This document shows positions 4,195 to 19,457 of a DNA stretch of 64,000 bases, piece by piece. Positions within the stretch are counted from its first letter, which is position 1; each line of letters begins with the position of its first letter. The translations under genes were made by a program, and so were the position numbers. Below the pieces are notes generated by a model. The model ran no database searches and was not told where the DNA came from. It saw only the letters and a program-made list of their open reading frames with translations. Source of the DNA: Flavobacteriales bacterium 34_180_T64 (GTDB lineage: Bacteria > Bacteroidota > Bacteroidia > Flavobacteriales > Flavobacteriaceae); contig MAAR01000004.1 in the NCBI GenBank assembly GCA_002162765.1, forward strand, positions 248,001-312,000, written 5' to 3'.

Positions 4195-6735
4195 TTGAAT
4201 AAGCCTCATTTAAAAATAGTAATTATTGTCATCCTAACTGGGTTATTCACCTCTTGCAATATCATGAAACGTGTTGGTAAAGACGAACACCTTCTTACCG
4301 AAAATGAAGTTATAGTAAATGATAAAAAAAACAACACGGAAGTAATTGATAACATCTTAATTCAAAAACCTAATTCACAATTAGGTATTGGCAAATTAAG
4401 TTTCCCTTTAAGACTACACATCTATAATTTAGCACGTCCGAATATAGATTCAATTTTAAATGAAAAAATCTATAATGATCCAAAAAAAGCAGCTTGGAAA
4501 ACCAAACTTTTGTCAAAAAAACAATTGGTTAAAGATATTGAGTCAAGAAAAAAATTAAATAGCTGGTTAAAAAAAACAGGGGAAGCTCCAGTTATTGTAA
4601 ATGAAGAAAAAACTAAAAAAAGTAGCGAACAATTAAAAAAATACTTTATAAAAAATGGCTGGCTAAATGCTTCAACAAGCTATGAAATTACAAGAAATGA
4701 AAATCAAAGAGCTTCGATAGAATATAATATAACTACAGGACAGCCTTTTCTCTTAGATTCAATTTCGGAGAAAATATCTTCACCTGTTATTGATTCTTTA
4801 TATAGAGATTTAAGGACAAAGTCCTTATTAAAAATTGGAGATCAATATAATGAATCAAATTACACCAATGAGCGAGATCGCTTAACGGTTGAACTGAGAA
4901 ATTCTGGATTATTTCATTTTGGACAAGATTATATCACTTTTGAAATTGACACCATTGGAACCAATAAAAAGATAAATACTAAATTACTCATAAAAGATCG
5001 AATCCTAAGAAATGAAGATTCTATTGTAAGAACACCTTTTAAGGTGTACAAAATTAAAGATGTTAATATTTTTACCGATTATAAATTTGAAAACAGAAAT
5101 TCTATAATCACAGATACGGTTCAACACAACAATTTCAATTTATACAGTTTTGATGAGTTAAAATATAGGCCTAAAGCGCTAACTGATGCTATTTTTATAA
5201 CCAAGGGACAAGTTTTTAGAGATATTGATCGCACTAGAACATATCGATATATAAGTGAGTTGAGAACCTTCAAATACCCAAATATAGAATATATAGAAAA
5301 TGCAAACGATACAACACTGACCGCAAACATTTATTTAACCCCTAGAAAAAAATATGACTTAGGATTTGACTTTGACATTTCACAGAGTAATATTCAAACT
5401 TTAGGATTTTCTTTCAGCTCAGGATTAATCATCAGAAATATTTTTCGAGGTGCAGAAACGTTTGAGGTTTCGGCCTTAGGATCTATTGGGGCATCAAAAG
5501 ATGCCTCAGATGCCAATGACCAGTTTTTTGACATCAATGAAATTGGTGCGAACTTAAAATTAACTATCCCAAGATTATTTTTGCCATTTAATACTGAAAA
5601 AATCATCCCTAAATACATGTCTCCAAGCTCCCGTATCATAGCAGGAGCAACAAGTCAGAAAAATATTGGATTAGACAAACAATCGTTCACAGGTTCACTT
5701 AATTATAATTGGCGTCCTTCCTCTAAATTTACTAATAATTTAGACTTGTTTAATGTTCAATTTGTAAAGAATTTAAATACTGACAATTATTTTGGAGTTT
5801 ATCAAAACTCCTATGATAGATTAAATGACATTGCAAGGGAAATCAGTTATATTTCTCCAGATGAGTCTTTAGGTATTCCTAATGAAGCAGATACTTTTAT
5901 TTCCGATGTGCTTGATCAAAATACCATTTTAATTCCAGAAGATCAAAATTACGTAGACGTGAACAACATCTCACAGCGTAAAGACAGACTAACTGAAGAT
6001 AATCTAATTTTTGCCTCAAGTTTTAATATCATAAAAGATAACAGAGACAATATTTTTGACAACAATTTTTCCATTTTTAGATTCAAATTGGAGTCTGCTG
6101 GAAATTTATTGAGCAGTCTTGCTAAAATATCAAATTCACAAATAAACGAGAATGATCAACATGAAATTTTCGGTGTTGCTTTTTCTCAATATTTGAAAAC
6201 AGAAATTGATTATGTTAAGCATTGGGATTTAGGTAAAAAAAATGTAATCGCAATGCGGAGTTATTTCGGTATTGCCATACCATATGGGAATTCTAAAAGC
6301 ATCCCTTTTTCAAAAAGTTTCTTTGCTGGTGGACCAAATGACAATAGAGCTTGGACCGCTTATAATCTTGGTCCTGGAAGCAGTAAATCGAGTAACGAAT
6401 TCAACGAAGCTAACTTAAAAATAAACTTAAGCCTTGAACAGCGATTTAATATTTTAGGCAGTCTAAATGGCGCTTTATTTGTAGATGCTGGAAACATATG
6501 GAATGTATATGACATTGAAGAAGATGATGCAAAAACGTTCTCTGGTTTCAGTTCATTAGAAGATATTGCAGTTGGTTCAGGATTTGGTTTACGATATGAC
6601 TTTGGTTTCTTTGTATTGCGTACAGATATTGGTTTTAAAACATACGACCCTTCAAATGATTTGGGTAATAGGTGGTTTAAAACATACAATTTCGCTGGCG
6701 CAGTGTACAACATAGGTATTAACTATCCATTCTAA
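4195..6735 (+). CDS. tamL: Lipidated Omp85 family outer-membrane protein TamL
   Basis: An 846-residue BamA/TamA-superfamily protein. Unlike proteobacterial TamA it has a lipoprotein signal: hydrophobic residues 6-17, then FTSC with the lipid-attached Cys at residue 21. This is the Bacteroidota TamL architecture. POTRA-like sequence fills the first half, and a C-terminal 16-strand barrel (about residues 385-846) ends in INYPF. The motif GPNDNRAW near residue 718 corresponds to the conserved barrel-lid loop of Omp85 proteins. TamL is thought to work with the inner-membrane AsmA-like TamB; no tamB is next to it here. The start is a TTG: a stop codon lies immediately upstream in frame, and the next ATG would remove the signal peptide. 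Confidence 0.88.
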   Translation: MNKPHLKIVIIVILTGLFTSCNIMKRVGKDEHLLTENEVIVNDKKNNTEVIDNILIQKPNSQLGIGKLSFPLRLHIYNLARPNIDSILNEKIYNDPKKAAWKTKLLSKKQLVKDIESRKKLNSWLKKTGEAPVIVNEEKTKKSSEQLKKYFIKNGWLNASTSYEITRNENQRASIEYNITTGQPFLLDSISEKISSPVIDSLYRDLRTKSLLKIGDQYNESNYTNERDRLTVELRNSGLFHFGQDYITFEIDTIGTNKKINTKLLIKDRILRNEDSIVRTPFKVYKIKDVNIFTDYKFENRNSIITDTVQHNNFNLYSFDELKYRPKALTDAIFITKGQVFRDIDRTRTYRYISELRTFKYPNIEYIENANDTTLTANIYLTPRKKYDLGFDFDISQSNIQTLGFSFSSGLIIRNIFRGAETFEVSALGSIGASKDASDANDQFFDINEIGANLKLTIPRLFLPFNTEKIIPKYMSPSSRIIAGATSQKNIGLDKQSFTGSLNYNWRPSSKFTNNLDLFNVQFVKNLNTDNYFGVYQNSYDRLNDIAREISYISPDESLGIPNEADTFISDVLDQNTILIPEDQNYVDVNNISQRKDRLTEDNLIFASSFNIIKDNRDNIFDNNFSIFRFKLESAGNLLSSLAKISNSQINENDQHEIFGVAFSQYLKTEIDYVKHWDLGKKNVIAMRSYFGIAIPYGNSKSIPFSKSFFAGGPNDNRAWTAYNLGPGSSKSSNEFNEANLKINLSLEQRFNILGSLNGALFVDAGNIWNVYDIEEDDAKTFSGFSSLEDIAVGSGFGLRYDFGFFVLRTDIGFKTYDPSNDLGNRWFKTYNFAGAVYNIGINYPF

Positions 6736-6819
6736 ATTTTGTCGATCCAAACGAAACCATCATCAGGATCATTTAGTTGAACTTCATTCAAAAACGGTAG
6801 CAGATATTTAAAAATTGAT

Positions 6820-6827
6820 TACTTTTG
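6820..6827 (+). promoter_or_regulatory. Possible -7 promoter element of fbaA
   Basis: TACTTTTG matches TAnnTTTG and lies 33 bases before the fbaA ATG. No -33 TTG is seen at good spacing. Confidence 0.35.
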
Positions 6828-6859
6828 ACCTTACATTTTTTTAATAAAACATCCATAAA

Positions 6860-7927
6860 ATGAGTCATAATATAAAACCAGGAGTTGCAACTGGTACAGC
6901 TGTTCAAGAAATTTTTAAACTCGCAAAAGAAAAAGGGTTTGCATTACCTGCGGTCAATGTTATTGGCTCTAGTAGTGTGAACGGAGTGCTAGAAACAGCG
7001 GCAGCGTTAAATGCACCAGTAATTATTCAGTTTTCAAATGGAGGCGGTGTTTTTAATGCTGGGAAAGGGTTAAGCAATGAGAATCAACATGCTGCTATTA
7101 CAGGTTGTGTTGCAGGTGCAAAGCATATTCATGTCATGGCAAAAGCTTATGGTGTCCCGGTTATATTACATACGGATCATTGTGCAAAAAAATTATTGCC
7201 ATGGATTGATGGTTTATTAGATGCAAGCGAACAGCATTTTGCAGAAACAGGAGCACCTTTATACAGTTCTCATATGATTGATTTGTCTGAAGAACCAATT
7301 GAGGAAAATATTGCTATTTGTAAACAATATCTCGAGCGCATGAGTAAAATGGGGATGACTTTAGAAATTGAATTGGGAATTACTGGAGGCGAAGAAGATG
7401 GCGTTGACAATTCAGATGTTGATGATTCCAAATTATATACACAACCAGAGGAAGTTGCATATGCTTACGAAGAATTAAGTAAAGTAAGTAATCAATTCAC
7501 AATTGCAGCCGCATTTGGTAACGTCCATGGTGTCTATAAACCAGGTAATGTGAAACTAACTCCTAAAATCTTAAAAAACTCGCAAGAGTACATCTCTCAA
7601 AAATATAATGTTGAAACTAACCATATAGATTTCGTATTTCATGGTGGATCAGGATCTACGGTTGAAGAAATTAGAGAAGCGATAGGTTATGGTGTAATTA
7701 AAATGAATATAGATACCGATATGCAATATGCATTCATGACAGGTGTTCGGGATTATATGAGTGAAAAATCAGCCTATTTAAAAGCACAGATAGGAAATCC
7801 GGAGGGCGACGATGTCCCTAATAAAAAGCATTATGACCCAAGAGCTTGGCTAAGAAAAGGGGAAAACACTTTTGTAGAACGATTAAAAAAAGCGTTTGAA
7901 GACCTTAATAATGTAAATACTTTATAA
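6860..7927 (+). CDS. fbaA: Fructose-bisphosphate aldolase, class II
   Basis: A 355-residue metal-dependent aldolase of the class IIA (E. coli FbaA) type. It cleaves fructose-1,6-bisphosphate in glycolysis and makes it in gluconeogenesis. Visible signatures are PVILHTDHCAKKLLPWIDGL (residues about 96-115, with catalytic Asp and zinc-binding His), the metal-binding Glu region EIELGITGGEEDGVDNS, the second His in NVHGVYKPGN, and FHGGSGS plus NIDTDMQYAF for phosphate and substrate binding. Length is normal. accD follows 35 bases later, apparently from its own promoter. Confidence 0.97.
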   Translation: MSHNIKPGVATGTAVQEIFKLAKEKGFALPAVNVIGSSSVNGVLETAAALNAPVIIQFSNGGGVFNAGKGLSNENQHAAITGCVAGAKHIHVMAKAYGVPVILHTDHCAKKLLPWIDGLLDASEQHFAETGAPLYSSHMIDLSEEPIEENIAICKQYLERMSKMGMTLEIELGITGGEEDGVDNSDVDDSKLYTQPEEVAYAYEELSKVSNQFTIAAAFGNVHGVYKPGNVKLTPKILKNSQEYISQKYNVETNHIDFVFHGGSGSTVEEIREAIGYGVIKMNIDTDMQYAFMTGVRDYMSEKSAYLKAQIGNPEGDDVPNKKHYDPRAWLRKGENTFVERLKKAFEDLNNVNTL

Positions 7928-7932
7928 CTTTG
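7925..7932 (+). promoter_or_regulatory. -7 promoter element of accD, overlapping the fbaA stop codon
   Basis: TAACTTTG matches TAnnTTTG. Its TAA is the stop codon of fbaA, 30 bases before the accD ATG, so accD may have its own start site inside the fbaA end. Confidence 0.4.
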
Positions 7933-7962
7933 CACTCTAACTAATTAACTAAACTTCAATTA

Positions 7963-8820
7963 ATGGCTTGGTTTAAAAGAAAAGAAAAGGGAATAACAAC
8001 TACTACTGAAGAGAAGAAAGACACGCCCAGAGGCTTGTGGTATAAATCTCCAACCGGTAAAATTATAGATACTGAAGAATTAGAATCGAATTTTTACGTG
8101 AGCCCTGAAGATGGATATCACGTACGAATAGGAAGTGCTGAATATTTTGAAATTCTTTTTGATGATAACAAATTTAAAGAATTGGATCCTGATCTAACGT
8201 CTAAGGATCCATTGAAATTTGAAGACACTAAAAAATATCCAGATCGTTTAAAAGCAGCTCAAGAGAAAACACAGCTTAAAGATGCTATTCGTACTGCTGT
8301 GGGTAAATCAAAAGGTAACGACTTAGTTATTGCCTGTATGGATTTCACTTTTATTGGTGGTTCCATGGGAAGCGTCGTTGGAGAAAAAATTGCCAGAGCA
8401 GCTGAATATGCCTTAAAAAAGAAGATACCATTTATGATTATTTCTAAATCTGGTGGCGCACGTATGATGGAAGCGGCATTATCTTTAATGCAATTAGCAA
8501 AAACATCCGTAAGGTTGGCCCAACTTGCAGAAGCTAAAGTTCCATATATTTCATTATGTACGGATCCAACAACTGGTGGAACTACTGCATCATTTGCCAT
8601 GCTAGGAGATATTAACATTAGTGAACCAGGAGCTTTAATAGGTTTTGCTGGCCCAAGAATTGTAAGAGACACAACTGGAAAAGAATTACCTGAAGGATTT
8701 CAAACTTCTGAATTCTTATTAGAACATGGTTTTTTAGATTTCATATCGCATCGAAAACATCTTAAAGATAAAATTAACCTTTATATTGATTTAATTAAAA
8801 ATCAACCATTAAGAGCATAA
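7963..8820 (+). CDS. accD: Acetyl-CoA carboxylase carboxyltransferase beta subunit, zinc ribbon lost
   Basis: A 285-residue AccD. With AccA it transfers the carboxyl group from biotin to acetyl-CoA in the first step of fatty acid synthesis. The crotonase-like core is clear: [15 protein letters not shown] (about 128-142), [17 protein letters not shown] (about 162-178) and [16 protein letters not shown] (about 204-219). In E. coli the N-terminal region carries a CxxC...CxxC zinc ribbon. Here the aligned positions (WYKSPTG and VSPED) are Ser29, Gly32, Ser47 and Asp50, with no Cys at all in the first 100 residues. The fold outline is kept but zinc binding must be lost. A strong terminator follows. 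Confidence 0.96.
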
Positions 8821-10389: not shown

Positions 10390-12633
10390 ATGATTCCAAA
10401 AGTTTTTAGAGAGGTCATCGACCTTGGTGATGGTAGAGAAATTTCTATCGAAACCGGAAAATTAGCAAAACAAGCTCATGGTAGCGTTGTTGTGCAATCA
10501 GGAAAATGTATGTTATTATGTACAGTTGTTTCCAATTACGAACAAAAAGACCTTGGTTTTCTACCATTAACGGTAGATTACAGAGAAAAATTTGCTGCTG
10601 CAGGTCGTTATCCTGGAGGTTTCTTTAAAAGAGAGGCAAGACCAAGTGATGGTGAAGTATTAACAATGCGTCTTGTAGACCGTGTTTTACGCCCATTATT
10701 TCCAAAAGATTATACTGCCGAAACGCAAGTGATGATTCAATTAATGTCTCATGATGATGAAGTAATGCCAGAAGCAATGGCAGGATTAGCAGCATCTGCG
10801 GCTATCCAACTATCGGATTTCCCATTTGAATGTGCCATTTCTGAAGCAAGAGTTGGTCGTATTAATGGTGAATTTGTTATTAATCCAACACGTGCTCAAT
10901 TAGAAGAGTCTGATCTAGAGATGATGATTGGTGCTTCAGCTGATTCTGTTATGATGGTTGAAGGAGAAATGGATGAGATTTCTGAAGAAGAAATGGCAGA
11001 CGCAATCAAATTTGCCCATGAAGCTATTAAAGTACAAATCGCAGCGCAACTACGTTTAGCGGAAGCCTTCGGAAAAAAAGAGGTTCGTGAGTATGAAGCT
11101 GCAGAGCAAAACGAAGATTTAGAAAAAAGAATACACGATTTAGCTTACGATAGATGCTACGCTATTGCGAAGAAGGGAACTTCAAAGGCTGAGCGTGGTG
11201 CAGCATTTGCTGAAGTAAAAGAAGAAGTTAAAGCCTCTTTTACTGAAGAAGAAATGGAAGAATTTGGACATCTTGTTGGTGATTACTATCGTAAAGCTGA
11301 AAAAGAAGCCGTACGTGAATTAACTTTAAGTGAAGGTGTACGATTAGATGGTAGAAAAACTGATGAGATTAGACCAATTTGGAGTGAAGTAGATTACTTA
11401 CCATCTACTCATGGATCATCTATTTTTACTAGAGGAGAGACTCAAGCATTAGCGACTGTTACTTTAGGAACATCTAGAGATGCTAACAAAATAGATATGC
11501 CATCTTTTGAAGGTGAAGAATCATTTTATTTACATTATAACTTCCCTCCATTTTGTACTGGAGAAGCTAGACCATTACGAGGAACATCTCGACGTGAAGT
11601 AGGACATGGTAATTTAGCTCAACGTGGATTAAAAGGAATGATTCCAGATGATTGCCCGTATACCGTACGTGTCGTGTCAGAGGTACTAGAATCTAACGGT
11701 TCGTCTTCTATGGCAACAGTTTGTGCTGGTACTATGGCTTTAATGGATGCCGGTGTTCAAATTACAAGACCAGTTTCTGGTATTGCAATGGGACTTATTT
11801 CAGATGGTGATCGTTATGCAGTATTGTCTGATATTTTAGGTGATGAAGATCATTTAGGTGATATGGACTTTAAAGTAACTGGTACTTCTGAAGGAATTAC
11901 CGCTTGCCAAATGGATATTAAAATTAAAGGCTTGCCTTATGAGATTTTAGTGAATGCATTAAAACAAGCTCGTGCTGGTCGTTTACATATTTTAGATAAA
12001 ATTACTGAAACAATTGCGGAACCTGCTGCAGATGTGAAACCACATTCTCCTAAAATGGTGACTAGAACTATTCCTAACGAATTTATTGGTGCTTTAATTG
12101 GTCCTGGTGGAAAAGTAATTCAAGAATTACAAAAAGAAACGGGATGTACTATCGTTATTAATGAAGACCCAGTTACTGAAGAAGGTATTGTTGAAATTCT
12201 TGGGACAGATCAAAATGGTATTGACCAAGTATTAGCCAAGATTGACTCGTTAATGTTTAAACCAGAAGTTGGTAGCGTTTACGAAGTTAAAGTTATAAAA
12301 ATGCTAGATTTCGGTGCAGTTGTTGAATATATGGATGCTCCTGGAAATGAAGTGTTATTACACGTCAGTGAATTAGCATGGGAACGTACTGAAAATGTAT
12401 CTGATGTAGTAAACATGGGAGACGTTTTTGATGTGAAGTATTTCGGTGTGGATTCTAGAACTCGTAAAGAAAAAGTATCTCGTAAAGCAATTTTGCCAAA
12501 ACCAGAAGGTTATGTAGCAAGACCACCAAGAGATAATAGTAGAAATGGCGGACGTGATAATCGTGGTCGCGATAATCGTAGTCGTGATAACCGACGTGAC
12601 GATAGAAAACCTAGAGAAGACAAACAAGATTAA
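10390..12633 (+). CDS. pnp: Polyribonucleotide nucleotidyltransferase (PNPase)
   Basis: A 747-residue phosphorolytic 3'-5' exoribonuclease, active as a trimer in mRNA decay. Domains in order: first RNase PH domain (about 10-145), an all-alpha linker (about 240-320), second RNase PH domain (about 325-555, with [20 protein letters not shown]), KH domain (about 560-620, [12 protein letters not shown]) and S1 domain (about 630-700). The tail after about residue 708 is a basic, low-complexity run of Asp-Asn-Arg and Gly-Arg repeats. It is absent from short PNPases and may help RNA or partner binding. No good promoter match is seen; the ATG at 10390 gives the standard N-terminus. Confidence 0.97.
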
Positions 12634-12717: not shown

Positions 12718-12760
12718 TATTACTTGCAGCACCAATTAGTATTACTTGCAGCACCAATTA
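12718..12760. repeat. Tandem 21-bp direct repeat, period 22
   Basis: The 21 bases at 12718-12738 are repeated exactly at 12740-12760 with one base between. The repeat spans the 3' end of the small lipoprotein gene. Because 22 is not a multiple of three, the duplication changes the reading frame and creates the present stop codon. Confidence 0.9.
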
Positions 12761-13109
12761 AAAGTGCACCAACAACAACTGCTCCAACCGCAACTGGAAT
12801 TACAGTGTTAAGACTTTTAGACTTTCGCCTTTCCTCAAGATTAATCGAGGCTATTTTGCTTTCTATCAGTTCCGTTTTAACAATTTCTCCTTTTACGATA
12901 TTAATACCATAGTACTTTTCATTTTCAAAAATGACCTGCTCATATTTAAATATCTGGCTAGTTTTCGTTTCTATTTTTACCCAATTTTTAGACATTGAAG
13001 CTCTTTTCAAAGTAACGGAATGATCTTTATAGACAACGCAACTCTCCATCAGTATGAGCATTGTGAAAAAAAATGTTACCATTCTAATTTTCTTTTTATA
13101 CGTTTTCAT
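12720..13109 (-). CDS. Small lipoprotein, C-terminal end altered by tandem duplication
   Basis: From the ATG at 13107-13109 this is 129 residues: basic start, hydrophobic run, lipobox MESC, then a soluble part. A Gly/Ala/Val-rich hydrophobic segment (about 100-120) lies near the C-terminus. The middle (KYYGINIVKGEIVKTELIES) aligns with the protein at 13799-14077 (KYFGLSRIKGKMQRMFLNI), so they are divergent members of one small-lipoprotein family. The function is unknown. The last five residues, NWCCK, come from a 22-bp tandem duplication read out of frame. Without it the protein would end SNIKILGDGN. Reading back to 13205 is open, but that part is the remnant of another family copy. Confidence 0.6.
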   Translation of the reverse strand: MKTYKKKIRMVTFFFTMLILMESCVVYKDHSVTLKRASMSKNWVKIETKTSQIFKYEQVIFENEKYYGINIVKGEIVKTELIESKIASINLEERRKSKSLNTVIPVAVGAVVVGALLIGAASNTNWCCK

Positions 13110-13128
13110 CATTTTTAATTTTAGTTTA

Positions 13129-13256
13129 TTATAATTATGTGATATTTTTAATATCATTATACTTGAAAATATCTTTTGCATTTTCCCATTAAACCTATCA
13201 TGCACATAAATCTTTTCTGATGCTATCCTTTTTTAAATAAATTGTGGGTTCATATT
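13129..13256 (-). pseudogene. Frameshifted remnant of a third small-lipoprotein family gene
   Basis: Read in successive frames on the minus strand, this piece gives EYEPTIYLKKDSI, then SEKIYVHDRFNGKMQKIF, then YNDIKNIT and a stop. The intact neighbour at 13799-14077 has YENGILKLKKVGI, AGKYFGLSRIKGKMQRMF and NINDIKKIT in the same order. At least two frame changes separate the blocks. The 5' half is missing, cut off right after the stop of the barrel gene. DNA similarity continues past the stop into the spacer, where 13121-13160 matches 13791-13830 at 35 of 40 positions. Confidence 0.7.
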
Positions 13257-13778
13257 CTAATAATTCCATTGTAACAAAAGTCCAGCTGAATATATATTAT
13301 CAATCCTATTGATATTAGCTTGAAGCTTTATCCCTATCGAAAATTTATCTCCAGTTTTAAATCTAAATTTTGCAACTAAGGGTATTCCAATTTCAGAAAA
13401 ACGGTTATTCCCATTATTGTAAAGAAAAAGACCAACACCAGCATTAGTATCAATAAAAAACCATTCTTTTAATTTCAATGCTCTTCCATATAAAATATTT
13501 AACTGTTGAAATCGATCTCCTCTCCCAAAAACTGCGATTGTCTCACCTACTGTTGCAGAAAAAGTGAATATGTGCTTTCCATAAGAATAGCTTAATTCCC
13601 CTGTAATAGAAGCACCTCCGTCATTATCTGTTAAAAAAACTTCAAGCGGAGTTATTGAAAAAGAGTTGAACTTTAATTTATCCTTATTAATTGTATTTTG
13701 AGCAAATACAGTAACTGATAACAGCCACAATGCTAAGCCAACAAATCGCATCTGTTGTTTTGTTTTAATAATTTTCAT
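13257..13778 (-). CDS. Small predicted outer-membrane beta-barrel protein
   Basis: A 173-residue protein with a signal peptide (LALWLLSVTVFAQ, cleavage near residue 26) and alternating polar/hydrophobic strands. It ends in an aromatic residue, LLLQWNY, as outer-membrane barrels do. The size fits an eight-strand barrel, but I recognise no specific family. It lies between an intact and a broken copy of the small-lipoprotein family on the same strand, 20 bases after the intact one, so the lipoprotein and barrel may be expressed and act together. That pairing is inference from position. Confidence 0.65.
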   Translation of the reverse strand: MKIIKTKQQMRFVGLALWLLSVTVFAQNTINKDKLKFNSFSITPLEVFLTDNDGGASITGELSYSYGKHIFTFSATVGETIAVFGRGDRFQQLNILYGRALKLKEWFFIDTNAGVGLFLYNNGNNRFSEIGIPLVAKFRFKTGDKFSIGIKLQANINRIDNIYSAGLLLQWNY

Positions 13779-13798
13779 GATCTGTTGGTTTTAGTTAA

Positions 13799-14077
13799 TT
13801 ATAATAATGTGATCTTTTTAATATCATTTATATTTAAAAACATTCGTTGCATTTTTCCTTTAATCCTTGACAACCCAAAATATTTACCTGCATCAATTCC
13901 TACTTTCTTTAATTTTAAAATCCCATTTTCATAGGTCGTAACATTGACCTTTTTTGATTCCATGATTGCTTGATTAAGTAAATCAGATTTCACCTTATAT
14001 ACTTTTAGCATTGAGCAACTCGTAGTAGACAAAAAAAGTACAATTGGCTTTGCGTGTTTTGATTTTTGTGATTCCAT
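13799..14077 (-). CDS. Small lipoprotein-like protein, family shared with 12720-13109
   Basis: A 92-residue protein of unknown function. Residues 1-21 look like a short lipoprotein signal (basic start, PIVLFLSTTSC), though the hydrophobic run is short for one and the start may be wrong. The rest is basic and contains the block KYFGLSRIKGKMQRMF, shared with the intact gene at 12720-13109 and the remnant at 13129-13256. It is first in a minus-strand group with the barrel gene and diverges from the HTH regulator at 14217. Confidence 0.55.
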   Translation of the reverse strand: MESQKSKHAKPIVLFLSTTSCSMLKVYKVKSDLLNQAIMESKKVNVTTYENGILKLKKVGIDAGKYFGLSRIKGKMQRMFLNINDIKKITLL

Positions 14078-14216
14078 GACGAACTAAATTAATTAAATAT
14101 GATGCTAAAGTAATTTGCGATTAATGAAAATCATTAGACCAAATCAAGTAGATTTTCAATTTTATTTTGTACTTTCTACAAATAGCACTCGCCTCTCTAT
14201 CATTGTTTTACAAAAA

Positions 14217-15215
14217 ATGCAAAAACAATTCATTACATATTTAAGAGAGAAATCGGGCGACAACACCTCCTTTATAGAAGAGGTGGCGACTGTTTTGGAC
14301 ATTGGGTATGACGCAGCATATAGACGCGTCAATTTAAAGACGAATCTATCTTTAGAAGAAAGTGTCATTCTTGCAAAACATTATAAAATATCATTAAATA
14401 GATTATTTGAAGTCGGAGGTCAAAATAGTATTCTCACCGATCTCTCACCACAAATTAATAATCAAGAAGATTTAGAAGGTTGGTTTAAGCAGTCACTAAA
14501 CAATGTATATCCGCTAACCAAATTAAAGAATTCAGTCTTTATATATTCAGCTAAGGACATCCCGCTATTTCACACGTTAAAAGATTCGCACCTAACCAAA
14601 TACAAAATTTATGTGTGGCTTAAAGACATAGACCCTACTATGGCAAAAAACAAAATATCTTTTGATGAATTTTTAAAAACAATACCCGAAAGTTTGCTAG
14701 AGAGCGCTTTCAATTTAGGTGAAATTTATAAAAATGTAAATACCTCAGAAATTTGGAACAACACAACCATAAACGGCACACTACAGCAAGTCATTTACTA
14801 TTTTGAATCAGGATTACTCTCGAAAGAGCTGGCTTTACATATTTGTGATGATATTGGAGACGTTTTTAATCATATTGAAAAACAGGCTATTCAACAAAGT
14901 ATAATCGGCTCTAAAAATCAATCCATTTACAATCTATACTTAAATGAAATTCATACACTTTCTAATACAATCATGGTAAAAACACCAGGTCAGAAAGTGT
15001 TTTTTGCACCATTTACGGTATTGAGCTATTTTAAAATTGACCACCAACCTACATGTGATCTTATGTATAAATTTTTACAAAACCTCATGAGTAATTCAAA
15101 ATTATTAGTAAATGCAGGTGAGAAAGACAGAACTCTGTTTTTTAATCGGATGCATAGAAAAATCAATAAATTGAGAGATCAAATTAATGCAAATGAGCCT
15201 TTTAGCTTTGAATAA
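14217..15215 (+). CDS. HTH-domain regulator, otherwise uncharacterised
   Basis: From the ATG at 14217 this is 332 residues. Residues about 1-65 form a helix-turn-helix of the XRE kind (FIEEVATVLDIGYDAAYRRV, then SLEESVILAKHYKISLNRLF). The remaining 260 residues are mostly helical with no domain I recognise, and there is no signal peptide. A longer reading from 14115 adds 34 residues that look like untranslated sequence. The gene diverges from the small-lipoprotein genes at 139 bases and precedes the lipoprotein/ECF sigma group, so it may regulate either side. Its ligand and targets are unknown. Confidence 0.65.
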   Translation: MQKQFITYLREKSGDNTSFIEEVATVLDIGYDAAYRRVNLKTNLSLEESVILAKHYKISLNRLFEVGGQNSILTDLSPQINNQEDLEGWFKQSLNNVYPLTKLKNSVFIYSAKDIPLFHTLKDSHLTKYKIYVWLKDIDPTMAKNKISFDEFLKTIPESLLESAFNLGEIYKNVNTSEIWNNTTINGTLQQVIYYFESGLLSKELALHICDDIGDVFNHIEKQAIQQSIIGSKNQSIYNLYLNEIHTLSNTIMVKTPGQKVFFAPFTVLSYFKIDHQPTCDLMYKFLQNLMSNSKLLVNAGEKDRTLFFNRMHRKINKLRDQINANEPFSFE

Positions 15216-15361
15216 TTTTAGGATTCCAAAACATTTTAAAAATCATACATGGTTTTACATTTCTAAAGAATAATGTCCATTACTTCAAATAAATCATCTC
15301 ATAACGCAACCTTTTTACTTTTTTCAGACTATAGGATATAGAACTTAAATTAATCTACATT

Positions 15362-16321
15362 ATGAAAACCCTAAAAGTTATTGCATCCCTTCTTATAGTT
15401 GTGAATTTAAATTCGTGCTCAGACGAACCATCAAATGAAAACATAGATGAAATACCAGAAGTAGTTGGTTACACCTATCAAACATATAACCTATCTACAG
15501 ATCCTATTTCTGTGACAAATTCAAGGGAATTCACCATAGAAAACAATAAGCTTCAAAGCTATACAAACGTTAATAGCCAAACGTCGCAAGTCCTTTCTGG
15601 GAGCTATAACTACAGTAATGATAAAATATCAGAAATATTGCAATATACGGATGAAAATTTAAGCTCTCGAAAACAATTTCTATACAATAGCAGTGGATCA
15701 TTAGCTGAATATAATCAAGAAACAATTGATGGGTCTCAATTATCATCCTATATTAGGATTGCTTTTTTACATACCAATGACACTATTTATGGCACTGCAT
15801 TGGCAAGTACAGATGGCATCAATTTTGATTTCAATCTCGCTACAGCGAAATTTGTGCTAGATAGCAATAAGAACCGAACATATTCTGAAATATATAGTTA
15901 TTCTAATTTTGAAACTAACATTATCACTAACACCTATGACGCCAATAATAATATGGTTATTGAAAATCGGTTTTCTAAACTTGAAGATGGCAGTTTTTTT
16001 AATGAACGCTCATACACATATACTTATGAAAACAGCCTAAATACTTTAGCTCAAATTTATGATGCTACTTTTGGAAGAGAACTTTTAATGCTTTTAAATC
16101 AACACCTTGAGCATGGCGGAAACGCCACTAATTATTACAACTCAAAATACATCTCTCCAAATTGTTTTGAATCTCATTCCTCAACTCTTTATGGTGATAT
16201 TGTTTCGGTAGAATTTGATAGCATATTAAATGAAAATAATTTTAGTGTTTTTAATGATTATAGAACGCTAGCTAATGGCGAGTTATTTAGTAAGTTTACC
16301 TATGATTTTACTTTTGAATAA
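15362..16321 (+). CDS. Uncharacterised surface-type lipoprotein upstream of ECF sigma factor
   Basis: A 319-residue protein with a lipoprotein signal (hydrophobic ASLLIVVNL, then NSC with the Cys at residue 19) and SDEPSNEN directly after the Cys, a typical flavobacterial surface-export composition. The body contains repeating strand patterns with many Tyr, Asn and Ser and a motif like QFLYNSSGSLAEYNQE. This resembles YD-type repeats and suggests a beta-rich extracellular part. No known family was recognised. The ECF sigma gene follows after 23 bases, so co-transcription is likely. Confidence 0.65.
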   Translation: MKTLKVIASLLIVVNLNSCSDEPSNENIDEIPEVVGYTYQTYNLSTDPISVTNSREFTIENNKLQSYTNVNSQTSQVLSGSYNYSNDKISEILQYTDENLSSRKQFLYNSSGSLAEYNQETIDGSQLSSYIRIAFLHTNDTIYGTALASTDGINFDFNLATAKFVLDSNKNRTYSEIYSYSNFETNIITNTYDANNNMVIENRFSKLEDGSFFNERSYTYTYENSLNTLAQIYDATFGRELLMLLNQHLEHGGNATNYYNSKYISPNCFESHSSTLYGDIVSVEFDSILNENNFSVFNDYRTLANGELFSKFTYDFTFE

Positions 16322-16344
16322 ACTTTAATTCATATTAAAATAAA

Positions 16345-16923
16345 TTGCTCCGAACAGTAAACCATTTGAATCTAAAACAACTAATATCGGCTTGTAAAAA
16401 AAACAATTTAAAGGCTCAGAGTGAGCTTTATAAAATGTACAAGGATGACCTATATATTTTGTCATTAAAGTATTGTAAAAACACAGAAGAAGCTCAAGAC
16501 AATTTACAGGATGCTTTTCTATACATCTTTAAAAACATTAAAAACTATAAAGAGCTAGGAACTTTTGAAGGCTGGATAAAACGTATCACCATTAATAAAG
16601 CCATAGACAAATACAAAAAAGAAAGCTTTATAAATATTGTTATTAATGATGACATATTAGTAGATGAATCAGTTAAAACTGAAGACATAACGATTCCTTT
16701 AGATGCTATTTTAAAAATCATTCAAAGTTTACCTTCGAGATACAGATTGGTATTTAACCTTTATGAGTTAGATAATTATTCGCATAAGGACATATCCGAG
16801 CTTCTCTCAATAAGCATAGGAACTTCTAAATCAAATTTGCATCGTGCTAAATTATTATTAAAGGAAAAAATAAGCCAAAAGACAATCGATAGAAATCAAA
16901 ATATCAAATCAAATGGGAACTAA
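16345..16923 (+). CDS. RNA polymerase ECF-type sigma-70 factor
   Basis: About 190 residues with both ECF domains. Region 2 runs from about 12 to 80 (SELYKMYKDDLYILSLKY, EEAQDNLQDAFLYIFKNI, FEGWIKRITINKAIDKYK). Region 4 runs from about 130 to 182 (LPSRYRLVFNLYELDNYSHK, then ISELLSISIGTSKSNLHRAK). There is no ATG before region 2. The start must be a TTG, either 16345 or the in-frame TTG at 16366, which gives the more typical N-terminus MNLKQLISACKKN. The stop overlaps the next gene by 11 bases. That overlap and the next protein's architecture suggest a sigma/anti-sigma pair. Confidence 0.85.
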   Translation: MLRTVNHLNLKQLISACKKNNLKAQSELYKMYKDDLYILSLKYCKNTEEAQDNLQDAFLYIFKNIKNYKELGTFEGWIKRITINKAIDKYKKESFINIVINDDILVDESVKTEDITIPLDAILKIIQSLPSRYRLVFNLYELDNYSHKDISELLSISIGTSKSNLHRAKLLLKEKISQKTIDRNQNIKSNGN

Positions 16924-18049
16924 AAAAAATATTGGCTCCGCAATTGAAGAGCAACTAAAAGGATTTCATTCATCTCCAGATGATGTCGTTTGGAATGCTA
17001 TTGAAGCCAAACTTAAAAAAGATAAAAAAGATAGAAAAATTATTTTCTTTTGGTTATTTGGTGGCACGGCAGCTTTATCATTACTACTAATAATGCTAAG
17101 TTTAAACAGTACAAATTTAATTGAAATAAAATCTACCTCTAATCCGGGAGAATCTAAATCAAATCTATCACATCATAAATTCGATTCAATTCCAGCTAAC
17201 GAAATTGGCAAAAGGCTTATCAATGAAACTGATGATGCTTTAAAAAATCAAGTCCATTTAAGTCAGATTAATTCTCAAAACCAACAAATTCAAAACAAAA
17301 AATCGAATGTATTATTTTCTCAAAATTCAAATAAAAAAGAAGAAAATATCGAGATTATACCAAATCGAAATAATAAGGACATTAAGAATACTACTTTAAA
17401 GACGGATAGTATATCAGAAAATAAAGATTCATTAAAAATTGTTTCAAAAAAAATTGATAAAAAAAGAAAACTTCCAATTAATAAAAAAGATAGCAGCAGT
17501 AGTAAACCAGAAAGAAAATGGAGCATCTATCCAAATGTATCTGCACATTATTATGGTGCCTTTGCTAAGTCTACAAATGATCAATTAACTCTAAATTATG
17601 GTCTCTATTTAAATTATTTGGCTACAAAAGATCTTACAATCAGGATTGGAGTACATAAACTTAATTTACAACAAACATCCACTGGAGGTAATTCTCTTAC
17701 TTTACAACAAAAAGCGAGTTATATAGAACTCCCGTTCGAATTAAAATATAGCCCTTTTAAAACAAAAGTTAAAACTAGTTTTATTGGAGGCTTTAGTTAT
17801 CTGCTGCTTGAGGATGCAAGACTAACTTCAACTACATCGAATAGTAGCTTACAAGTTTCAAATAATACTGTTTTTAATAAATCAACTTTATCGGTAAATC
17901 TTGGAATGGGATTTCAGGCTAAAATTTTCAAAAAATTACACATTAACATAGAACCTATGTTTAAGTATCATATAAAGCCTTATTCAGAATCAGTAGAATA
18001 TTCACCTTTTACACTCTCAGTATCAAGTGGTATTGAATATAAATTCTAA
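16913..18049 (+). CDS. Membrane-anchored protein with C-terminal barrel-like domain, candidate anti-sigma partner
   Basis: A 378-residue protein. Residues 1-43 are a cytoplasmic segment (LKGFHSSPDDVVWNAIEAKL) like the short N-termini of Bacteroidota proteins encoded beside ECF sigma factors. One membrane helix follows (about 44-64, FFWLFGGTAALSLLLIMLSL), then a Lys/Asn/Ser-rich spacer (about 65-200). From about 203 to 378 there is a beta-strand-rich domain ending YKF that resembles an eight-strand outer-membrane barrel of the PorT kind. The ATG overlaps the sigma gene. An anti-sigma role is inferred from context; no zinc-binding anti-sigma motif is visible. Confidence 0.7.
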   Translation: MGTKKNIGSAIEEQLKGFHSSPDDVVWNAIEAKLKKDKKDRKIIFFWLFGGTAALSLLLIMLSLNSTNLIEIKSTSNPGESKSNLSHHKFDSIPANEIGKRLINETDDALKNQVHLSQINSQNQQIQNKKSNVLFSQNSNKKEENIEIIPNRNNKDIKNTTLKTDSISENKDSLKIVSKKIDKKRKLPINKKDSSSSKPERKWSIYPNVSAHYYGAFAKSTNDQLTLNYGLYLNYLATKDLTIRIGVHKLNLQQTSTGGNSLTLQQKASYIELPFELKYSPFKTKVKTSFIGGFSYLLLEDARLTSTTSNSSLQVSNNTVFNKSTLSVNLGMGFQAKIFKKLHINIEPMFKYHIKPYSESVEYSPFTLSVSSGIEYKF

Positions 18050-18123: not shown

Positions 18124-18498
18124 ATGATAAATTCAGACATAGAAAAATACACTGACTTCTTAAACACGTCAATTTCCTATTTAGAACAAACAGGCTTTGA
18201 AAACATCAAAGCAAACATAGATGGTTATGACACTCCAAAATCTTATTCCAAAGTAGGAAGTGATTTTACAATCACACCAGATATTGTTGCAGAAAAAGGA
18301 GGCAGAACCCATATATTTGAAATCGGGCTTAAATCTTCAGAACCAAAATTGTTAAAAACAAAGTGGTTATTTTTAAATACATTAAGCAATATGAAGTCTC
18401 ATAGTTTTAAATTTATTACTACACGTGGCCATTATAAATTCACGAATGAAATGCTAGACGACATTAACTTGAATAACAGCAAGTTGATTAAACTTTAA
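18124..18498 (+). CDS. Conserved-looking small protein of unknown function
   Basis: A 124-residue soluble protein with no signal peptide or membrane segment. I do not recognise the family. The central stretch ITPDIVAEKGG...HIFEIGLKS has a PD, a following strand and an acidic/Lys strand end. This is the spacing seen in PD-(D/E)XK nuclease folds, though the classical E-x-K is not exact (EIGLK). The gene has a good promoter of its own and ends 95 bases before rpoD on the same strand. Confidence 0.6.
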   Translation: MINSDIEKYTDFLNTSISYLEQTGFENIKANIDGYDTPKSYSKVGSDFTITPDIVAEKGGRTHIFEIGLKSSEPKLLKTKWLFLNTLSNMKSHSFKFITTRGHYKFTNEMLDDINLNNSKLIKL

Positions 18499-18593: not shown

Positions 18594-19457
18594 ATGAGAC
18601 AACTTAAAATTACAAAGCAGGTTACCAATAGAGAAACCGCTTCGCTAGATAAATATCTTCAGGAAATTGGAAAAGTTGACTTAATTACTGCCGACGAAGA
18701 AGTAGAATTAGCACAACGCATAAAAGCGGGTGATCAATTGGCTTTAGAAAAATTGACTAAAGCAAATCTACGTTTCGTTGTATCAGTAGCTAAGCAATAT
18801 CAAAACCAAGGACTTACATTACCAGATTTAATTAATGAAGGTAATTTAGGGCTTATTAAAGCTGCTCAACGTTTTGATGAAACAAGAGGGTTTAAATTTA
18901 TCTCTTACGCTGTATGGTGGATTAGACAATCTATTTTACAGGCTTTAGCTGAGCAATCACGTATTGTGCGTTTGCCTCTTAATAAAATTGGATCAATAAA
19001 TAAAATAAATAAAACGTTTGCGTTTTTAGAGCAAAGTCATGAACGTCCTCCAAGTGCAGAAGAAATTGCCAAGGAGTTAGACATGACCATTAATGATGTA
19101 AAAGAGTCTATGAAAAACTCTGGTCGTCATGTATCAATGGATGCACCTCTAGTTGAAGGTGAAGATTCAAATCTTTATGATGTATTACGAAGTGGAGAAT
19201 CACCAAATCCAGACAGAGATTTGTTACATGAATCTTTAAGAACTGAAATCGAACGTGCATTAGAAACATTGACACCTCGTGAAGCAGATGTTATTCGTTT
19301 GTACTTCGGATTAGGAGACCAACACCCAATGACTCTTGAAGAAATTGGAGAAACCTTTGATTTAACACGTGAGCGTGTGCGTCAAATTAAAGAAAAAGCA
19401 ATCCGTAGGTTAAAACATACCTCACGAAGTAAAATATTAAAAACATATTTAGGTTAG
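18594..19457 (+). CDS. rpoD: Primary RNA polymerase sigma factor RpoD/SigA
   Basis: A 287-residue group 1 sigma factor of the short Bacteroidota form: region 1.1 and the non-conserved region are missing and it starts at region 1.2 ([20 protein letters not shown]). Region 2 carries [35 protein letters not shown] and [16 protein letters not shown]. Region 4.2 is [20 protein letters not shown]. This protein reads the TAnnTTTG promoters seen throughout the window. It is preceded by an AGGAG site and followed by two terminators. Confidence 0.97.

Follow-up and report, generated by a model that had tools for sequence, protein, structure and literature searches.

What is a single polypeptide doing when it appears to begin in the cytoplasm and end in the outer membrane, and what is the relationship of such a protein to the sigma factor and the lipoprotein that are encoded beside it? 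This question is raised by three open reading frames (ORFs) within the window, the 64-kb stretch of DNA analysed here, which comes from a marine-type Flavobacteria genome of 3.16 Mb in 19 contigs with 19 Sigma70_r2 matches. From the sequence and the ORF list, a lipoprotein (15362-16321, 319 aa), an ECF sigma factor (16345-16923, 192 aa) and a fusion protein (16913-18049, 378 aa) follow each other in that order, all on the + strand, and the sigma and fusion genes share 11 bases (16913-16923). Both the common strand and the overlap had been reported in the initial annotation and are borne out by these coordinates. The same 11-base overlap is seen in 9 of 11 pnp/rpoD-linked loci among the neighbourhoods of relatives.

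The operon is flanked by two genes which, from their sequences, we take to be pnp (10390-12633) and the primary sigma gene (18594-19457). Between pnp and the operon lie three small reverse-strand ORFs (within 12720-14077), two of which start in a signal-peptide-like manner, followed by a regulator-like gene (14115-15215) with a DISYDAAYRRVNLKTNLSLEE-type motif, here DIGYDAAYRRVNLKTNLSLEE. Homologues of the latter with 40-43% identity flank the corresponding operons of L047 and L049, and L159 has a similar gene near its operon. Downstream, a 124-aa neighbour (18124-18498, + strand) is kept next to the operon in several relatives, with homologues of 69-76% identity adjacent to it in L043 and L046 and further off in L047; from this conserved position it is a candidate, if unproven, member of the system.

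The fusion protein was modelled with AlphaFold from 50 aligned sequences (mean pLDDT 73.5) and divides into four parts. Residues 1-40 (16913-17032, +) are predicted to be cytoplasmic and to form two helices (7-18 and 24-36) with the motif P22/W27/I30/L34, in which W27 is invariant across the 50-row alignment, and this is the presumed sigma-binding part. Residues 41-64 (17033-17104, +) form the inner-membrane helix in the model, with a lysine/arginine-rich N side that is consistent with the inside-positive orientation. Residues 65-202 (17105-17518, +) represent a disordered and poorly conserved periplasmic tether with pLDDT mostly below 50, and residues 203-378 (17519-18046, +) are predicted to fold as an 8-strand outer-membrane barrel with a C-terminal F. 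The barrel scores 77-98 in 10-residue blocks, nearly all of them at least 90, and in a Foldseek search against solved structures its best match is OmpA (9fzd, E 2.8e-9, target TM 0.71), with further matches to OmpW, Ail, OmpX and others. The initial annotation had proposed a cytoplasmic part, one membrane helix, a long spacer and a C-terminal barrel, and had named a structure prediction of residues 203-378 as a check; the predicted OmpA-like barrel supports that layout. It also bears on the idea that the C-terminal beta domain stays in the periplasm, so that the protein would cross one membrane only, as a conventional anti-sigma factor with an extensive sensor domain. The Pfam match of ORF 3 to OMP_b-brl_2 could be read in this way, as its 28 bits are barely above the cut-off of 27, but the confidently predicted 8-strand barrel with its outer-membrane structural neighbours, the aromatic C-terminal residue and the description of same-layout homologues as outer-membrane barrels make a periplasmic domain highly improbable.

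Conservation is distributed unevenly along the fusion, with a mean majority share in the 50-row alignment of 0.54 for the N-terminal helices, 0.45 for the barrel and 0.24 for the tether. In 133 barrel-bearing homologues the tether measures 126-307 residues (median 209), compared with 138 in the window, and a tether that is free in sequence yet has a length floor would fit the need of a link between two membranes. The barrel is present in 133 of 138 unique homologues. The five relatives without it (L153, L159, L160, L165 and L171, 188-232 aa) retain the N-terminal part together with the membrane helix; these barrel-less forms have a common C-terminal YYNS-type motif.

Is such an arrangement new? 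Proteins with this layout were first described in 2022 (PMC9308784), and the name Dma dates from 2024 (Pardue et al. 2024, as cited by others). According to PMC13088901, Dma proteins consist of an N-terminal anti-sigma domain, a membrane helix, a disordered tether and a C-terminal barrel, encoded beside an ECF21 sigma gene; deletion of dma2 has an effect that requires das2, with the dma2 operon and neighbouring genes ranking among those induced most strongly. The same layout is a proven anti-sigma type in Bacteroides and Phocaeicola (PMC13088901, PMC9308784), where Reo spans from the cytoplasm to the surface (PMC13114119, PMC9308784). The suggestion of the initial annotation that one polypeptide spans the envelope and reports on it would, by analogy, be right but already known, since the layout is published for the Dma anti-sigma factors. 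As in the Das-Dma systems of Bacteroides thetaiotaomicron (Dma1 and Dma2; Pardue et al. 2024, 2026), an ECF gene lies beside a four-part fusion (PMC13088901), and where the Das-Dma operon is induced upon loss of the anti-sigma factor (PMC13088901), autoregulation in the window is predicted from the promoter. Unlike Das-Dma, the Flavobacteriaceae have two parallel loci, at pnp-rpoD and at recA, with separate promoter codes, and the window operon is headed by a lipoprotein of another family. The window operon is thus most likely a Das-Dma system, with the B. thetaiotaomicron Dma likened to it by description.

The comparison extends to the EcfO-Reo-NigD system of Phocaeicola vulgatus and Bacteroides fragilis, in which a surface lipoprotein gene also lies beside the sigma/anti-sigma pair. 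In P. vulgatus reo (M0N98_03760), ecfO (03761) and nigD (03762) are consecutive (PMC13114119), and the NigD proteins, surface lipoproteins that belong to the EcfO regulon, require EcfO-Reo for their production (PMC13114119, PMC9308784). The window lipoprotein differs in that it is not a NigD by Pfam (PF12667/PF17415): neither it nor three regulon lipoproteins match the family, and there is no NigD_N match in its own genome; a NigD identity is rejected for want of a Pfam match. Across the class, a NigD_N search found eight places in 7 of 247 genomes. Four of these have an adjacent ECF gene, after which comes the gene for a 409-425-aa protein with a similar N-terminus and an OMP_b-brl barrel, in the order NigD-ECF-barrel anti-sigma on one strand in L399 and L400 and with a divergent NigD gene in L401 and L402; at the other four no ECF gene was found within the piece read. 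A profile of the fusion family matches the four NigD-linked proteins with a probability of 98.9 (E 2.8e-17) over the barrel part only; the likeness of the N-termini, which lie outside this match, is one seen by eye. In two other genomes of the class (L405, L406) an ECF gene and a barrel anti-sigma gene are followed by a 434-435-aa lipoprotein gene, downstream rather than upstream.

A more distant comparison is with FecI-FecR, where an ECF sigma factor and an inner-membrane anti-sigma factor work with a separate outer-membrane TonB-dependent transducer barrel. The window operon likewise combines an ECF sigma factor, a presumed inner-membrane anti-sigma factor and an outer-membrane partner, but here the barrel is fused to the anti-sigma factor. 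With no FecR domain in the fusion by Pfam and with a fused barrel, signalling of the FecIR type is rejected.

The sigma factor itself is Das/EcfO-like on the basis of Pfam and alignment, with the domains Sigma70_r2 (E 4e-12) and r4_2 (E 6e-16) in ORF 2. Translation probably starts at TTG 16366 rather than at the TTG 16345 chosen by the ORF caller, because the first methionine of the homologues aligns there, giving a protein of 185 aa (16366-16923, +). The upstream start would add seven residues that are not present in the homologues; the frame used in the initial annotation also begins before TTG 16366. By sigma alignment the nearest named relatives are from Psychroserpens (69%), and the identity with the NigD-linked sigma factor of L399 is 35%.

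How widespread is the operon, and what surrounds it? Of the 149 genomes sampled from the family, 124 contain a homologue of the fusion. Neighbourhoods were read at 149 loci (the window, 68 fetched stretches and 80 named loci), which contain 144 sigma-fusion records, 138 of them unique by the last 150 fusion residues; at four named loci the sigma gene is present and no fusion was detected. This constancy has a bearing on whether the fusion could serve chiefly as a mechanical link that joins the inner membrane to the outer one, with the adjacent sigma gene a by-product of operon growth. The long tether with its lower length bound and the barrel end are what one would expect of such a strut. Against it stand the adjacency of sigma and fusion genes in the 144 records, the N-terminal helices as the best conserved part, kept even in the five barrel-less forms, and the action of Dma1, Dma2 and Reo as anti-sigma factors (PMC13088901, PMC9308784), and a mainly structural role is accordingly given very little credence. 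An anti-sigma role for the fusion remains the preferred reading.

The unique records fall largely at two recurrent places: 44 adjoin pnp or the primary sigma gene (place A) and 82 follow recA (place B), with 12 left unassigned. The genome of the window carries both. Its second system (L050; C12:10000-22000, 5988-8488) lies after recA and consists of a 136-aa lipoprotein, an ECF sigma factor and a 505-aa fusion protein, under its own promoter type. The A and B sigma factors of script-readable loci differ before the tyrosine of what we presume to be region 2.4 (INKAI versus INTAL and variants) and in what is presumably region 4 (LHRAK versus LARAR).

In most loci a lipoprotein gene precedes the sigma gene. 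By a strict lipobox criterion this holds on the same strand for 24/44 A, 57/82 B and 5/12 other loci, or 86/138 in total, an undercount in that several lipoproteins clear by eye are not included. Among the other ORFs of the same stretches the share is 99/992 (Fisher p 6e-41, a value that is too small because the loci are related). In the window this lipoprotein (15362-16321, +) has the N-terminus MKTLKVIASLLIVVNLNSC followed by SDEPS after the cleavage point, with LNSC as the lipobox, and the SDEPS stretch resembles the lipoprotein export signal (LES) of F. johnsoniae, SDDFE (PMC5080379). It matched no Pfam or NCBIfam family and has counterparts in only 4 of the 149 sampled genomes of the family. 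The model is beta-rich and of low confidence (pLDDT 63.9), and a fold search with it gave weak and mixed matches to Rhs shells, OspA and porin-like proteins.

What controls the operon? A predicted ECF promoter (15304-15333, +) ends 28 nt upstream of the lipoprotein ATG and consists of the -35 element ACGCAACC, a 15-nt spacer and the -10 element GACTATA. The pattern ACGCAACC-N-GACTAT has a single match in the 64-kb window and none in 100 shuffles. Related elements recur upstream of the first gene in the relatives. For instance, the dyad GCAA-N18-ATCT is found at B loci in 57/60 cases with a lipoprotein gene and 21/22 without, where the largest count of any dyad in five shuffles was 14 and 5, respectively, and the dyad GCAA-N19-CTAT is found in 17/36 A loci, where shuffles reached up to 10. 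When the sites are aligned, ACGCAACC is followed after about 15-16 nt by CATCTA at B loci or GACTATA at A loci, so the recA-linked paralogous system has the same -35 and a different -10. Pattern scoring assigns a B-type -10 to 79 of 82 B loci and an A-type to none, with 3 unscored; of 42 A loci, 31 have an A-type -10, none a B-type and 11 are unscored, some of them because start codons are misplaced. The -10 thus agrees with the type of locus in all 110 scored cases. A search of one open literature library for the -35 letters together with Flavobacterium returned nothing, and the ECF motif with a CGT box in the promoter map of F. psychrophilum could not be equated with either the A or the B motif (PMC9723704).

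The operon is probably autoregulated, in so far as the relatives, too, have an ECF promoter before its first gene. At B loci a B-type -10 lies before the first gene in 57/60 cases with the lipoprotein and in 22/22 without, and the presence of the same promoter in front of the sigma gene at loci that lack the lipoprotein means that the promoter belongs to the sigma locus. The lipoprotein gene is therefore part of an operon whose transcription is probably directed by the operon's own sigma factor.

If the promoter is specific, what else does it mark? Across the 149 genomes the strict A pattern has 12 sites in 11 genomes (0 for the reversed-pattern control), whereas 132 sites in 68 genomes match the strict B pattern, against 1 in its control. 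The genome of the window holds seven perfect sites, two A and five B, and five of the seven directly precede a lipoprotein gene. Both A sites do so, before the operon itself and before a 146-aa lipoprotein (C13:14856), as do three B sites, before the recA operon and before lipoproteins of 155 aa (C13:4523) and 134 aa (C13:9476). The fourth B site stands before the start of a presumably SusC-like gene at a contig end, and no ORF lies within reach of the fifth, where the next gene is one that we take to be rhodanese-type. In L278 a B-type site (1668-1696) beyond recA faces away toward a presumed rhodanese-type (YceA/TrhO-like) gene, an arrangement also seen in L292, L318 and L319. Of 57 B sites remote from the recA and sigma genes, some picked by hand and the others as returned by the search, 23 precede a strict lipobox ORF, 18 another ORF and 16 none that was found. 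The 18 include five SusC-like genes and several with signal-like starts and a cysteine followed by acidic residues. With a mock promoter placed before each ORF of at least 100 aa in L111-L190, 123 of 1041 are lipobox ORFs (p 1.4e-7 against the remote B sites), so exact sites away from the operon precede lipoprotein genes above chance. B-type sites also lie about 110-140 nt before SusC-like genes in L277, L314, L324, L334 and L341, and such genes are likely to recur as members of the recA-linked regulon. With up to 2 mismatches there is no excess in the window's own genome (25 vs 51 and 33 vs 33 in the reversed control), and the regulon search with 1-2 mismatches was dropped since near-matches were at the control level.

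These data return us to the lipoprotein, for which the initial annotation had allowed a role as either sensor or output. As sensor or barrel ligand it would bind to or within the barrel, and the switch would open when it is missing or misfolded. Its adjacent and co-directional gene in most loci is in keeping with this, and so is the acidic stretch after the cysteine, with at least two acidic residues among the next five in 21/24 A and 52/57 B operon lipoproteins against 32/84 other lipobox ORFs, which fits surface exposure near a barrel. However, the sigma gene directly follows pnp or recA, with no lipoprotein between promoter and sigma gene, in 28 of 126 loci (6/44 A, 22/82 B). Moreover, whereas the B lipoprotein is a single family of about 137 aa, the A lipoproteins belong to several by single-linkage BLAST, and the four larger families require nine changes on a tree of 51 barrels and nine on a tree of 56 sigma factors, with a minimum of three. 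The equal counts imply that the lipoproteins are swapped and track neither tree better, the barrel no more closely than the sigma factor. Among the five barrel-less relatives a lipoprotein of one family is still found in four, upstream in three and downstream in one, and the promoter is common to remote lipoproteins. A sensor or ligand role is therefore unlikely, and in view of family turnover, the barrel-less relatives and the loci without a lipoprotein the idea of an obligate partner of the barrel is rejected. The lipoprotein is more likely an output, since the slot changes family and four barrel-less relatives still have a lipoprotein; the operon promoter and the regulon favour that half of the earlier proposal, and the sensor half is not supported.

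The operon can thus be described, with good though not complete confidence, as an autoregulated sigma/anti-sigma operon of the Dma/Reo kind with an envelope-spanning fusion and the lipoprotein as its first output. The N-terminal helices of the fusion would lie in the cytoplasm, its helix in the inner membrane, the tether across the periplasm and the barrel in the outer membrane. By analogy with Bacteroides, the ECF sigma factor would be bound by the N-terminal helices as long as the cell is at rest. A disturbance of the outer membrane, or of the assembly of its proteins, may cause the barrel end to move or to remain unassembled, whereupon the hold would be lost, probably by proteolysis, and the sigma factor freed to direct synthesis of the lipoprotein as the first product; release by envelope stress is again suggested by the Bacteroides systems, and both the nature of the trigger and the protease are guesses.

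What, finally, does this mean for the family? The kind of system is already known, its layout having been published for Dma1/Dma2 and Reo. The present analysis contributes the Flavobacteriaceae branch and its promoter code, a pair of paralogous systems each with its own -10, a lipoprotein regulon, a lipoprotein slot with turnover and natural barrel-less variants. So far, Dma-type anti-sigma factors have come from a few gut Bacteroides and relatives, with outputs (NigD, vesicles, PULs) that seem to have little in common. The Flavobacteriaceae promoter code predicts the regulon from sequence and points to one common output, suggesting surface lipoproteins as the products that such systems induce. 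It makes testable, in a laboratory species amenable to genetics, what the sigma factors control and whether the tethered outer-membrane barrel is the sensor, a question for which the barrel-less relatives are natural controls. More tentatively, and as a possibility somewhat short of an even chance, the envelope-spanning anti-sigma systems of the Flavobacteriaceae may be devoted to the control of a surface-lipoprotein coat with exchangeable members: two systems side by side, with a common -35 and separated by the -10, would each induce scattered small surface lipoproteins, together with some SusC-like transporters in the recA-linked case, while at pnp-rpoD the lipoprotein at the head of the operon would be swapped as promoter, sigma factor and anti-sigma factor stay.
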